DNA of 64,000 nucleotides from an uncultured Flavobacteriaceae bacterium. Lineage in GTDB: Bacteria; Bacteroidota; Bacteroidia; Flavobacteriales; Flavobacteriaceae. The notes beneath the pieces are model-generated. The model was given only the letters and a program-made list of their open reading frames with translations, had not been told where the DNA came from and made no database searches. Shown piece by piece: positions 24,302-62,973 of this stretch; positions within the stretch are counted from its first letter, which is position 1, and every line of letters starts with the position of its first letter. The stretch covers positions 194,560 to 258,559 of the forward strand of contig CANMFQ010000004.1 in assembly GCA_947497145.1 (NCBI GenBank), read 5' to 3'. A program made the translations under genes and the position numbers.

Positions 24302-24372
24302 CACCCCTTTTAGGGACAAAAGTTTAAAATGAATTAATAATCAGGGTCGGGCACCCTACAAATTAATGTGAT

Positions 24373-32651: not shown

Positions 32652-32840
32652 ATAAACTACTTTCTGTTAGCTCTAAAATTAAGTTTTATTTTAAGAACTG
32701 GCTTATTTTTCTCTGCTATTTACCCTCATTATAATTATCAAAAAAAAGAAACTAAAACACTATCTATAACAAAAATAAGGCGCACACCACAGTTTTAACA
32801 TACTACACATCATTTCTTTTTAATAACTGTAGTAACTATA

Positions 32841-32848
32841 TATCTTTG
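32841..32848 (+). promoter_or_regulatory. -7 box of candidate small RNA copy 1
   Basis: TATCTTTG (TAnnTTTG); same box and flanks (…tatctttgaagtgt) in copy 2. Confidence 0.65.
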
Positions 32849-32852
32849 AAGT

Positions 32853-32934
32853 GTTATTAAAAACGAGTAAAATTTTTCATTTTCATATAGTGTTCTAGCA
32901 AAAGAGCTCCGATCGAAAGACGGAGCTTTTTTTA
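32853..32934 (+). ncRNA. Candidate small RNA, copy 1 of a duplicated unit
   Basis: Promoter box 32841-32848, body attttcattttcatatagtgttct shared with copy 2, intrinsic terminator 32901-32934; no ATG in transcript. Confidence 0.7.
32901..32934 (+). terminator. Terminator of candidate small RNA copy 1
   Basis: aaagagctccg-atcgaaaga-cggagcttttttt. Confidence 0.85.
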
Positions 32935-33031
32935 ATTGGTAAAAACGCTAGTTTCAACCACATTTCTTTTACGGTATTCTCCAAACATGTTAAAACGTTA
33001 ATGCTAAGTCGAAAGAAATATAGCCTAGCCT

Positions 33032-33493
33032 TTAACTTTGGTTATTAGTTGAAATACATCTGAAAAGAATTGATTTCTTCTTGTATTCCAATCGTACCTC
33101 ACTTGCCTTGCCTTTTTGTATGTAATCAATGTCACTTTTTCCTATTACAAAACTAATTTTAGTCATCCAACGATTGGAAACATTTGAATAGTCCGATTCT
33201 ATTTCTGTAATATCGGATTCCAAAATAAGATTCTCGCTTTCACTCTTAAAAATTAACTTTGCTCCCTTAAAGGTCTTTATATTCTCTCTACTTAAAATAA
33301 TAGCTTCAAGAAAATCAAAACCTGCTAATTCTTGAAAATCAACCCAAAGTTGCCCATCTACAGACTCGGCAATTTTTTTCCCTTCAATATTGGTCATTAG
33401 CTTTTCTGTATAGGTGTCTACATGCATACGCTCTAAAGCTCGTATGTTTCCAAACGCGCCTAATACCTTATCTATCTTTCTAAATATGCTCAT
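33032..33493 (-). CDS. Hypothetical protein located between two copies of a candidate small RNA
   Basis: 153-aa ORF MSIFRKIDKVLGAFGNIRALERMHVDTYTEKLM...; no confident family. Confidence 0.65.
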   Translation of the reverse strand: MSIFRKIDKVLGAFGNIRALERMHVDTYTEKLMTNIEGKKIAESVDGQLWVDFQELAGFDFLEAIILSRENIKTFKGAKLIFKSESENLILESDITEIESDYSNVSNRWMTKISFVIGKSDIDYIQKGKASEVRLEYKKKSILFRCISTNNQS

Positions 33494-33663
33494 AATTTGG
33501 TTATTGGTTGCTCAATATAAAGAAGAAAAAAATAACCTTCAACTAAAGTGCAAAATTCAGCTTTACTAATCTTAAATAAAAGACGTAAAAACAAAATAAT
33601 GGGTTTTCACCACAGTTTCATATCGTTACACATCATTTCTTTTTACAAACTGTAGTTACTACC

Positions 33664-33671
33664 TATCTTTG
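33664..33671 (+). promoter_or_regulatory. -7 box of candidate small RNA copy 2
   Basis: TATCTTTG (TAnnTTTG), conserved with copy 1. Confidence 0.65.
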
Positions 33672-33675
33672 AAGT

Positions 33676-33770
33676 GTACTTAAACAAGTGCTTTTAATAC
33701 AAGTATAAATTTTCATTTTCATATAGTGTTCTCGTAAAAGAGCTCCGTCATTTGACCGGAGCTCTTTTTA
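33676..33770 (+). ncRNA. Candidate small RNA, copy 2 of a duplicated unit
   Basis: Promoter box, shared body attttcattttcatatagtgttct, terminator 33736-33769; no ATG in transcript. Confidence 0.7.
33736..33769 (+). terminator. Terminator of candidate small RNA copy 2
   Basis: agagctccg-tcatttgac-cggagctct followed by T-run. Confidence 0.85.
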
Positions 33771-33825: not shown

Positions 33826-36800
33826 TCAAACCTTAGGTTTTTCTTCTAAAACAGGGGTATTCTTTCGCACAAACCCCAATGTTCTAGTCGCCGTTTTCAT
33901 ATCGGCATACCTAGGGTCAGAGACATAATCTTCCTTTTTCATTTTAATTACCTCAATACTCAAAAACCCAAATTCACTAACTACTTTACCATAAAACCGA
34001 TATACCCCCCTAGCCCGAAACCCATATTTGGCAGCTACAGGAGGAAACAATACAACATCAAAAACAGCTCCTTGCTGATCTACAAAAGTGCCAAAATGCA
34101 TTTGTTTTCCATTATGAGTACGCGTATTTTTCACAGCAACCATATAACCATATATATCTATATGCCTATTGAGATATAGCGCTAAATCTTTAGTTACTGT
34201 GGCATTCATTGGCGGATTGGCAAGTAACTCAAACGGACTACACAAACAAAAACCCAATAGTTCTAACTGTGTAAAAGCCATTTCTAAATCGGTACTATAC
34301 AACTGCGGTATTTTAAAATTTTGATGCCTCGGTTTAAATAACTTAGGGTGGTCAATTTTGTTACTTTTACTTAAAACCAAATGCGCTTTCCATAACAACT
34401 CATGTTTATTTGTATTAGTAAAACGAAAAGCGTCAATACGAATGAGAATACTAACCTGATCTACAGAGATAAGTACACGATCTAAAAAATCTTCTAACGA
34501 ATTAAAATCTCCGTTTGCTATACGCTCTTTTACTATACGCGCTACAACCCTTGCTTCAAGTTCTTTTAAATACATAAAACCCAAATACAATTGTTTCCCA
34601 TAAATACAATTCACAGCAAAACTATTATTGATACATGGCGCATGTATGGTAGCACCAAGCATACGTGCTTCATGAATATAAAACTCAGCCCTATAGAAAC
34701 CTCCTCCATTATTAAGCACCGCTACCATATACTCTAGAGGAAAATAAGCCCGTAAAAACAAGGTTTGGTAACTCTCAACTGCATACGAAGCTGAATGTCC
34801 CTTAGCAAATGCATAGCCCGCAAAACTGGCCACTTGATTCCATATTTCAAAAATGAGCTTATCATCATAGCCTTTTTTTCTACAATTATCAATAAATTTC
34901 TGTTCTACTCTTTTAAACTCTTCTCGCGAACGAAACTTACCACTCATACCACGGCGCAACACATCTGCCTCACCAAGATTAAGCCCTGCAAAATGATGCG
35001 CCACCTTAATGACATCTTCTTGATATACCATAACACCATAAGTATCTGGCATAATATCTAGCATTACAGGATGTGATTTTTCTTTAGCTCTATCAGCATT
35101 TCGATGTCGTAAAATATACTCTCGCATCATACCACTTTTGGCTACTCCTGGACGAATAATAGAACTAGCAGCAACTAAACCAAGATAATTATCGACTTCT
35201 AGTTTCTTTAAAAGCATACGCATTGCTGGAGATTCTACATAAAAACACCCCATACACTGCGCACTTTTTATTAAAGCATTGACTGCGCTATCTGCTTTTA
35301 GTGCTGTGATATTATGAATATCAAAAGTATCTTTCTTTTCAGGTTGGTTGTAGGCTATAATATCTAATGCCTCTCGTACTTTTGCTAATCCACGCTGCCC
35401 TAGAATATCAAATTTATAAAGTCCCACATCTTCGGCAATTACCATATCAAATTGTGTTGTAGCAAATCCCTTGGGAGGCAAATAGGTTGCCGCAAACCAA
35501 TGAAGTGGTTTTTCGCTAATTAAAATACCTCCTGCATGAATACTTAAATAGTTAGGCATACCCTCTAAAAGCTGTGTATACTTAACCACCAAAGCTGCTA
35601 TTGTATCTAATTGAGAAACCTGAAAATTACGATTGCAAAGCCTATCGATTTCATCGTTGGGCAAGCCAAAAACCTTACCCAATTCACGTATCATACCCCG
35701 CCATTTAAAGGTTACATAAGTACCCAACAAAGCAACATTTTTAAAACGTTTGAAAATATATTGTGTTATTGCAGGACGATCACGATGTGAAAAATCAATA
35801 TCAAAATCGGGCGGATTGGCACGATATAAATTCATGAAACGTTCAAAATACAAGTCTAGCTCCATAGGGTCTACATCGGTAATACGCAACAAATAAGCTA
35901 CAATACTATTAGCACCGCTACCACGCCCTACATAAAAGAATTTTTGTTTGCGCGCATAGGAAACAATATCCCAATTAATAAGAAAATAAGAAACAAAACC
36001 CATAGCGTTAATGAGTTGCAATTCTTTATCTAAACGCTCCTCAACCGCAACACTTCTATTAGGATAGCGGTACGACAGTCCTTCTTCGCATAAGTCTTTA
36101 AGCAGTGTTGCATCTTCTTCTTGGCTACCCAAATACGTTTTTAAGTTTTGCGGTTTTCGCCCTTCAGAAAAATCAAAATGAATAGAGCAATCATTCATTA
36201 ACCGCTCTGTGTTTTCTAGAATAAATGAATATTCAGAAAAAGCATTCGCTAAATTTTGCACAGGAAACATCTTCTCATCCTCTCTTGCCTGTTCTGTAGT
36301 AGATAGTTTGCTCAATAAGGTATTATTGGCAATAGCACGTAATAATCTATGTGCATTAAAATCACGTTTCCCACGAAAAGTAACTGGCTGTTGTACTACC
36401 AATTTATCTTTAAACTGCAGCAATCTTGAAAATGGTAGTCGCCTTAAATCGGCAATAGAAATTCCTATAAACTCATAATCGGCAAAACTTAACATTTCAT
36501 TTTCCAACACTTTTTCAAAAGGATAAATGACATAAGCATGCTTAAATTTTGGAGCGATTGTTGAAAATTTTTTGTTTTGATGAAGGTGTTCTGAGAGAAA
36601 ATCATTCAATTCCAAATACCCTTCATTGTTTTTTGCAATACCAACGAAACAAGGTGTTATTCCGTTTCTAAAATCGACTCCCAAAATAGGTTTAATTGCA
36701 AATTCTGGCGCTTTTCTAACAAAATTTAATGCTGCAGAAGTTGTATTTATATCTGTAAGCGCCAATTGACCTACATGATTTTCTTGTGCCAACTGCAATA

Positions 36801-36861
36801 ACTCCAACTCTGAGAAAGTACCGTAGCGAAGGCTGTAATATGTATGACAGTTTAAATACAA
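33826..36861 (-). CDS. DNA polymerase III alpha subunit, short DnaE2/ImuC-like form
   Basis: PHP domain N-terminus (NCHTYYSLRYGTFS), PDFDIDFSHRDRPAI catalytic motif, 1011 aa, follows a Y-family polymerase gene. Confidence 0.93.
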   Translation of the reverse strand: MYLNCHTYYSLRYGTFSELELLQLAQENHVGQLALTDINTTSAALNFVRKAPEFAIKPILGVDFRNGITPCFVGIAKNNEGYLELNDFLSEHLHQNKKFSTIAPKFKHAYVIYPFEKVLENEMLSFADYEFIGISIADLRRLPFSRLLQFKDKLVVQQPVTFRGKRDFNAHRLLRAIANNTLLSKLSTTEQAREDEKMFPVQNLANAFSEYSFILENTERLMNDCSIHFDFSEGRKPQNLKTYLGSQEEDATLLKDLCEEGLSYRYPNRSVAVEERLDKELQLINAMGFVSYFLINWDIVSYARKQKFFYVGRGSGANSIVAYLLRITDVDPMELDLYFERFMNLYRANPPDFDIDFSHRDRPAITQYIFKRFKNVALLGTYVTFKWRGMIRELGKVFGLPNDEIDRLCNRNFQVSQLDTIAALVVKYTQLLEGMPNYLSIHAGGILISEKPLHWFAATYLPPKGFATTQFDMVIAEDVGLYKFDILGQRGLAKVREALDIIAYNQPEKKDTFDIHNITALKADSAVNALIKSAQCMGCFYVESPAMRMLLKKLEVDNYLGLVAASSIIRPGVAKSGMMREYILRHRNADRAKEKSHPVMLDIMPDTYGVMVYQEDVIKVAHHFAGLNLGEADVLRRGMSGKFRSREEFKRVEQKFIDNCRKKGYDDKLIFEIWNQVASFAGYAFAKGHSASYAVESYQTLFLRAYFPLEYMVAVLNNGGGFYRAEFYIHEARMLGATIHAPCINNSFAVNCIYGKQLYLGFMYLKELEARVVARIVKERIANGDFNSLEDFLDRVLISVDQVSILIRIDAFRFTNTNKHELLWKAHLVLSKSNKIDHPKLFKPRHQNFKIPQLYSTDLEMAFTQLELLGFCLCSPFELLANPPMNATVTKDLALYLNRHIDIYGYMVAVKNTRTHNGKQMHFGTFVDQQGAVFDVVLFPPVAAKYGFRARGVYRFYGKVVSEFGFLSIEVIKMKKEDYVSDPRYADMKTATRTLGFVRKNTPVLEEKPKV

Positions 36862-36894
36862 ATTATTGATTTTTATTCAGCAACCATTACGTTA

Positions 36895-38109
36895 CTACTG
36901 CTTACGATGCGCTAATACTACTGGCGGCATACCATTAAAAGGATTATGCATTCTACCAATAGTTTTGGCTGCCATTCCCGAAGCTCTTAGTACGCTTTTA
37001 TCACCATATCGTTTGCGAATGGTATCCATAGCATTATATAGGTTGATGATTTCTTCTGTATCTTCAAAAAGATTAATTTGATAATTACCTGATACCAAAT
37101 GACTAAAACGAATACCTATTAAGCGAACCAACAGTCGCCTGTTGTATAACAATTTGAATAAATCTAAAATTTTAGGAATCAAAATATGATCAGCACTGGT
37201 GTACGGTATTCGCAATTGTTTGGAATAGGTGTTAAAATCAGCATACCTAATTTTCACTGAAATACAAGCTGTTAACTTCTCACCCCTTCGAAGTTGGTAG
37301 GCCAAATTTTCGGTCATTGCAATAAGAATACCGCGTAGTTTTACCACATCAATAGTATCACGATTAAAAGTACGCTCAGTAGAAATAGACTTTCGTTCGC
37401 AAAAAGGAATTACGGGTGTATTATCAATGCCATTTGATCTTTTCCAAATAATAGCTCCGTTTTTACCCAGTACACGTTGCATAACATCTATAGGCATTTC
37501 TTGAATAGTCTGCACTTTTCGCAAGCCCAAATTGCGAAGGGTTTGATACGTTTTATCACCAACCATAGGTATTTTTTTAATAGAAAGCGGCGCTAAAAAA
37601 GATTTCTCCAAACCCTTATCTACTAGTAATCTATTATTGGGTTTTGCCTCATTGGTAGCTACTTTAGAAACTACTTTATTACCTGAGAGTCCGAAAGAGA
37701 TAGGCAAACCTGTTTCTTTAATAATGCGATCTCGCATTTCTGAAGCATACTTGTACGTGCCAAAAAAACGATCCATACCCGTAAGGTCTGCATAAAACTC
37801 ATCAATACTTGATTTTTCAAAAATCGGCACCTGTTCTTTTATAATTTCAGTCACCATATCAGAGTATTTACTGTACGTTCCTGCATTACCGCGAATTATG
37901 TATGCTTCGGGGCAAAGTTCGCGTGCCATTCGCATTGGCATTCCTGAGTGCACGCCAAAACCTCGGGTCTCATAACTACAAGCTGCCACTACACCTCGAT
38001 CTCCTGTGCCTCCAACAAGCAAAGGTTTGTTTTGCAACTCTCTATTCAATAACCGTTCTACAGATACGTAAAAGGTGTCAAGGTCAATATGAAGTATAGT
38101 TTTATTCAT
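36895..38109 (-). CDS. dinB: DNA polymerase IV, Y-family
   Basis: ILHIDLDTFYVSVERLLNRELQNKPLLVGG; SSIDEFYADLTGM; GLSGNKVVSKVATNEAKPN. Confidence 0.95.
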   Translation of the reverse strand: MNKTILHIDLDTFYVSVERLLNRELQNKPLLVGGTGDRGVVAACSYETRGFGVHSGMPMRMARELCPEAYIIRGNAGTYSKYSDMVTEIIKEQVPIFEKSSIDEFYADLTGMDRFFGTYKYASEMRDRIIKETGLPISFGLSGNKVVSKVATNEAKPNNRLLVDKGLEKSFLAPLSIKKIPMVGDKTYQTLRNLGLRKVQTIQEMPIDVMQRVLGKNGAIIWKRSNGIDNTPVIPFCERKSISTERTFNRDTIDVVKLRGILIAMTENLAYQLRRGEKLTACISVKIRYADFNTYSKQLRIPYTSADHILIPKILDLFKLLYNRRLLVRLIGIRFSHLVSGNYQINLFEDTEEIINLYNAMDTIRKRYGDKSVLRASGMAAKTIGRMHNPFNGMPPVVLAHRKQ

Positions 38110-62771: not shown

Positions 62772-62973
62772 ATTATTCTTAGCAAGAGCATGTTTTCTTC
62801 CATTACTATGATTTTTTCATAGGTGCACATGTAAGAAAAAATATGCTAAAAACAACAATAAATCTGCTATCATTCTCCATAAATAAGCGATAACACCACT
62901 ACAATTCATCTATTCACAACAAAATTTACCCTTACATTTATTTTCAACATATCATTGTAGGAAATAAAGCTTC

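Follow-up and report, generated by a model that had tools for sequence, protein, structure and literature searches.

What are the two similar, apparently non-coding units that lie about 823 nt apart in the genome of an uncultured Flavobacteriaceae bacterium, and on what would they act? We analyzed a 64,000-nt stretch of this genome (hereafter, the window) together with related genomes. A repeat search returned a 77-nt direct repeat of 82% identity (32785 and 33608, offset 823) and a 55-nt direct repeat of 87% identity (32857 and 33693, offset 836). The units are collinear apart from an insertion of 13 nt that lengthens the unit 2 body, which explains why the promoter and body offsets differ. 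The initial annotation had described duplicated units of this spacing and architecture; the promoter box TATCTTTG, the 23-nt block, and the terminator stems all lie where it had placed them, and the terminator loops differ between the copies as it had claimed. On the plus strand, unit 1 comprises an operator with direct half-sites CACCACA (32785) and CACATCA (32806) at a 21-bp period (32785–32814), a −7 box TATCTTTG (TAnnTTTG; 32841–32848), a predicted sRNA of ~81 nt with an approximate start (32853–32933; covariance-model match, 103.6 bits), a pairing core TTTTCATTTTCATATAGTGTTCT (32874–32896), and an intrinsic terminator (32900–32933). Sequence comparison places the same parts in unit 2, also on the plus strand: the operator at 33608–33637 (CACCACA at 33608, CACATCA at 33629), the −7 box TATCTTTG at 33664–33671, a predicted sRNA of ~94 nt, again with an approximate start, at 33676–33769 (89.3 bits; fold z-score −4.3), the core TTTTCATTTTCATATAGTGTTCT at 33710–33732, and the terminator at 33736–33769, which also faces the 3′ end of a convergent dnaE2-like gene. 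Each unit thus has a promoter and an intrinsic terminator of its own, and the terminator hairpin was the sole stable structure in the fold of unit 1. Judged from sequence, the units are paralogous sRNA genes. In each, a direct-repeat operator precedes a flavobacterial −7 box, and the body has little structure up to the intrinsic terminator.

The units are unlikely to encode a conserved small protein. Neither predicted transcript contains an ATG, in agreement with the initial annotation. Unit 1 contains a 15-codon GTG frame, but related copies read GTG-TAA at the same place, so this frame is not conserved. Among the sRNA copies scored, box-to-core distances were spread over all three frames and an ATG occurred in only six transcripts, which argues against a conserved reading frame.

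The units belong to a larger family. The similarity exceeds chance: BLAST with unit 2 recovered unit 1 (E = 6.5e-28) and, elsewhere in this genome, a third full copy on contig C22 (E = 1.6e-15); a fourth, diverged copy with the core CACATTATGTTCTTG lies on C11. All 15 genomes of the genus gave BLAST matches, and the 23-mer TTTTCATTTTCATATAGTGTTCT was invariant in the 29 genus copies so recovered, with indels in the 5′ part and drift in the terminator loop. A covariance model gave strong matches (E below 5e-7; the E-values are rough) in 45 of 251 Flavobacteriaceae genomes, or 42 of 231 genera, these genomes being related and hence not independent. The 42 genera form the Maribacter/Arenibacter/Allomuricauda/Cellulophaga group, and sRNA-positive genomes mostly carry 2–5 copies, often in tandem, that have one pairing region in common. 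The 23-mer was also present in 30 covariance-model loci, a reading that took in the best locus per genome and lower-scoring copies only partly. Named records recovered by a scan with an exact pattern, whose loci for that reason do not bear on invariance, include Maribacter, Pseudozobellia, Arenibacter, Cellulophaga, Allomuricauda/Flagellimonas, Robiginitalea, Eudoraea, Croceitalea, Kriegella, Euzebyella, and Muriicola. When samples of the whole order and phylum were scanned (395 phylum genomes), scores came only from Flavobacteriaceae.

Across 96 distinct aligned copies, the terminator helix was 99.4% paired; 7 of its 12 pairs had changes on both sides, double-sided changes numbered 139 (29 in shuffles), and the covariation score was 0.451 (0.243 in shuffles). 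Selection on specific blocks of a non-coding unit, as first annotated, is supported by this covariation and by conservation in ~42 genera, well beyond the genome of origin. Neither unit matched any of the 4227 families of Rfam 15 at the gathering threshold, which agrees with the proposed novelty; at relaxed thresholds the best weak matches, far below, were PsrR1 (25.9 of 42 bits) and csRNA. Streptococcal CiaR-dependent csRNAs (RF02379) are sibling sRNAs under a response regulator, but cmscan gave 22.3 bits, where the gathering score is 57. A literature search found no papers on sRNAs of the Maribacter/Arenibacter/Allomuricauda/Cellulophaga group. On these sequence data, the units are two copies of a previously undescribed multicopy family of small regulatory RNAs. 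The small RNA units of the initial annotation hold at this level, and its pair gives way to a multicopy family whose copies share an operator and whose pairing partner can be identified.

The partner emerged from an opposite-strand BLAST match in the window genome, a site AGCTCTTTTACTTGAACACTATATGG in the 3′UTR of a 55-aa DUF6747 gene (PF20532), and this site is conserved in the genus. DUF6747 was present in 45 of 45 sRNA-positive genomes but in only 5 of the 206 others, a co-occurrence that is partly owed to shared ancestry. When 251 whole genomes were searched by pattern for the 20-mer CTCTTTTACTTGAACACTAT with at most one mismatch, there were 20 matches, one per genome and all in sRNA-positive genomes, whereas the reversed control gave none. 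All 20 lay past the end of a DUF6747 match, at a distance of ~10–25 nt (175 nt in the window genome). Other sRNA-positive genomes, such as L229, L370, L373, and L376, have sites beyond one mismatch, and a clear 3′UTR site was missing in a few (L231, L232, and L372).

DUF6747 genes differ in their complementarity. The sample of NCKP-type genes comprised 23, 8 of them within the genus and 15 outside it, and 21 had a 3′UTR complement with a duplex energy of −21 to −35 kcal/mol, equalled by none of 300 dinucleotide-shuffled cores per duplex. In most 3′UTR sites, two mismatched nucleotides are conserved at the center of the duplex, and cofolding the site with the sRNAs of the window genome gave a net gain of 15–20 kcal/mol over the separate folds. 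A second, weaker site overlaps the start codon of DUF6747 genes and is moderate to strong in many species; in L231, L223, and L373 no shuffle of 300 was as good, and L231 has a perfect AGAACACTATATG there instead of the 3′UTR site. The 3′UTR site is the stronger and better conserved of the two. Most MK-type paralogues have neither site; the exceptions are L041, L276, and G013 (L342), with a GAACACTAWATGAAAA-type or similar site in the 3′UTR, and a few start sites. Matches to GAACACTATATG elsewhere in the genus were considered as extra targets and rejected, being mostly scattered coding matches (EHYMK, QHYMK). The sRNAs thus have conserved complementarity to unlinked mRNAs, and very probably act by pairing with the mRNA of this tiny membrane protein. 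A literature search found no paper mentioning DUF6747.

Upstream of the promoter, the initial annotation had pointed to an apparent inverted repeat, CCACAGTTT...AACTGTAGT. This repeat is not conserved in relatives, and we discarded it as the operator; what is conserved instead is the direct repeat CACCACA-N14-CACATCA with its 21-bp period. Both half-sites scored 12/14 or better in 181 of 185 distinct upstream regions, exactly 21 bp apart in 170, and only 3 of 185 shuffled regions scored as high; the −7 box TAnnTTT[A/G] was present in 149 of 185 sRNA copies. A pattern scan of the 15 genus genomes found 207 operator sites against 26 for the reversed control. A looser pattern in the window genome alone gave 20 against 15, so individual weak sites there may be due to chance. 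Behind the better sites are the sRNAs, MKN-type DUF6747 genes, 34–35-aa peptides, an Hpt-like protein, secreted and surface-type proteins, and a PAS histidine kinase. Among MK-type genes the operator was detected at only a part, not including that of the window genome. A period of 21 bp, as found at the sRNA operators, suits LytTR or AraC-type dimers. No transcription factor that might serve as the activator was found among the genes read behind operators. Overall, the gene family, the operator class, and the pairing partner are well supported by the comparisons made here.

Several other features accompany these operators. In the window, a third operator, CACCACTA...CACAACAA (62894–62922, plus strand), lies directly upstream of the PAS histidine kinase gene (617 aa, from 62974 onward), which is followed by a receiver-only response regulator; the operator and kinase are arranged in the same way in another species, G011 (L332). 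At L334 789–1990 (window genome C5:200591–201551), there are three tandem units of ~465 bp, each with an operator, a TACCTTTACACTGTAATTAAG promoter, a predicted transcript of ~230 nt without a long ORF, and a terminator. Similar tandem operator arrays occur in other genus genomes, and we regard the units as a candidate RNA family, the second uncatalogued one in the regulon of these operators. The array is beside a gene for a gliding/T9SS-type protein and near a Flavo-1 RNA (RF01705; 57.5 bits, L334 185–262, minus strand). In L272, L277, and L285, genes for 34–35-aa MESQMNAPTRDEVQVYKNDYFSGMMLLMKRLFML-like peptides (~1620–1730 on the matching strand) follow the operator, and in some cases a GNAT-like acetyltransferase gene comes next. 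An operator variant, CACAACAAAAA...ACACAACAA, accompanies genes for a conserved ~390-aa secreted protein with a ~340-nt leader (L266, L267, L269, L270, L283, L288, and L297).

Related species have one type-A sRNA gene in the interval from dnaE2 to fdhF. The window genome has two copies there, separated by a 153-aa gene (33032–33493, minus strand). This ORF is without a Pfam match, and one relative (L102) has a homolog close to this locus. Convergent with unit 2, at 33826–38109 on the minus strand, are genes for a dnaE2-like polymerase and an impB/mucB-family polymerase, a cassette of the SOS-mutagenesis type. We do not propose a functional link between the sRNAs and this imuB/dnaE2 cassette, since the other copies, and those of most other genera, are located elsewhere. 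The window also contains an S16-Flavobacteria ribosomal protein leader (RF03138; 52.8 bits, 24333–24367, plus strand).

These observations can be combined into a model. A putative dimeric activator would bind CACMACA-N14-CACAWCA upstream of a flavobacterial sigma-A promoter and switch the sRNAs on. Their single-stranded core of ~33 nt, UUUUCAUUUUCAUAUAGUGUUCUCGUAAAAGAG, would then pair without Hfq with DUF6747 mRNAs, over 20–25 bp at the conserved 3′UTR site CUCUUUUACnnGAACACUAUAUG adjoining the terminator; a weaker pairing would span the start codon (GAACACUAUAUGGGAACACUA). A search for Hfq was negative in all nine sRNA-positive genomes examined and positive in 5 of 14 controls. The likely outcome would be blocked initiation, faster decay, or both, of NCKP-type DUF6747 mRNA; repression is the direction that we infer, because the second site overlaps the start codon and by analogy with FopS sRNAs. 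The same operator would drive MKN-type paralogues, and activation would then swap DUF6747 isoforms. The swap would not be general, as some sRNA-positive genomes have NCKP-type genes only and the operator is at only part of the MK-type genes. Transcription of the sRNAs, the identity of the activator, repression, and the isoform swap are what we infer from this arrangement, and we consider the model as a whole (redundant activator-induced sRNAs, Hfq-independent pairing with DUF6747, repression, and isoform swap) to be probable. A wider version is a tentative proposal that we hold with less than even confidence: a clade-wide regulon in which one putative activator, through 21-bp direct-repeat operators, would induce the redundant sRNAs, DUF6747 paralogues, the second tandem RNA family, the ~34-aa peptides, surface proteins, and the PAS kinase, while the sRNAs would silence housekeeping DUF6747 through the start-codon and 3′UTR sites, giving an RNA-driven isoform swap of a membrane microprotein.

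The better conservation and greater strength of the 3′UTR site suit a sponge no less than a repressed target, and this is the main rival to our model. The DUF6747 3′UTR would then be a decoy that titrates the sRNAs, whose true targets would be other AUGAAAA starts, to which the UUUUCAUUUUCAU half of the core is complementary. This half, the complement of an AUG-AAA-AUG-AAA start, is invariant yet only partly paired in the DUF6747 duplexes, and the strongest complement does lie within a terminator-bound 3′UTR. However, beyond the sRNAs and DUF6747 3′UTRs, CATATAGTGTTC complements in the 15 genus genomes were mostly scattered coding matches with no recurrence at starts, and many species have complementarity at the DUF6747 start itself; we therefore regard a sponge as unlikely. 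The complementary start-codon site, which would block initiation, also makes it improbable that pairing next to the mRNA terminator shields the DUF6747 mRNA end from decay so that the sRNAs raise DUF6747, even if the operator common to the sRNAs and some paralogues could let both rise together.

Slightly less probable again is an arrangement like a type I toxin–antitoxin system, with DUF6747 as a toxic membrane peptide and the sRNAs as trans-encoded antitoxins. DUF6747 is small and hydrophobic (~55 aa, one hydrophobic helix), its genes are multicopy, sRNA complementarity is located at the start codon and 3′UTR, and co-occurrence is strict; but the sRNAs are not linked to their target genes, many of the MK-type paralogues have the sRNA operator without a pairing site, and the sRNAs appear activator-controlled from their sequence, unlike the usual constitutive antitoxins. 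It is hardly credible that the units specify no functional RNA and are repeated terminators, protein-binding sites on DNA, or short minus-strand genes (MKMK...). The reverse strand does read AGAACACTATATGAAAATGAAAA, a plausible start region, but its frame is unconserved past MKMK and breaks at differing points between copies, the −7 box, body length, and T-run all suit the plus strand, and a site complementary to the RNA recurs 3′ of one gene family. We retain sRNA-mediated repression of DUF6747 as the preferred reading.

Comparable systems are known. In the available text of their report, the FopS sRNAs of Bacteroides block susC translation from a start-overlapping site (PMC11697453), and they resemble the present family in belonging to Bacteroidota and in being multicopy siblings (65–70 nt) whose conserved pairing region binds at translation starts. 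The same text describes 12–15 copies, a 5′-end seed, SusC-like transporter targets, and canonical sigma-A promoters, and within it no 3′UTR site is described (PMC11697453); the family here has 2–5 copies, a core inside the transcript, a direct-repeat operator, and DUF6747 as its partner, and scored only within Flavobacteriaceae. LhrC1–5 of Listeria are likewise redundant multicopy sRNAs under one regulator, the LisRK two-component system, and impede translation by pairing with mRNAs directly and independently of Hfq (PMC4132741), but they differ in phylum, CU-rich pairing motifs, and target class, and no Rfam relation was detected. Rfp18 of Flavobacterium psychrophilum is also a flavobacterial trans-acting sRNA, with a deletion phenotype, but is strongly structured, its third stem-loop being predicted to pair with metalloprotease mRNAs (PMC9723704). 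We rejected Rfp18 as a homolog, as the family was found in none of the listed genomes of g127, a genus of many species that is probably Flavobacterium, and unit 1 is stable only at its terminator hairpin.

To our knowledge, regulatory RNAs are poorly known in Flavobacteriia, and a conserved 3′UTR pairing site is unusual among bacterial sRNAs. The family described here is large and clearly delimited, and its strongly conserved pairing partner was recovered by an unbiased search, so that target, site, and mechanism can be tested together. It also provides the first functional lead for DUF6747 and exposes a candidate regulon common to many marine genera.
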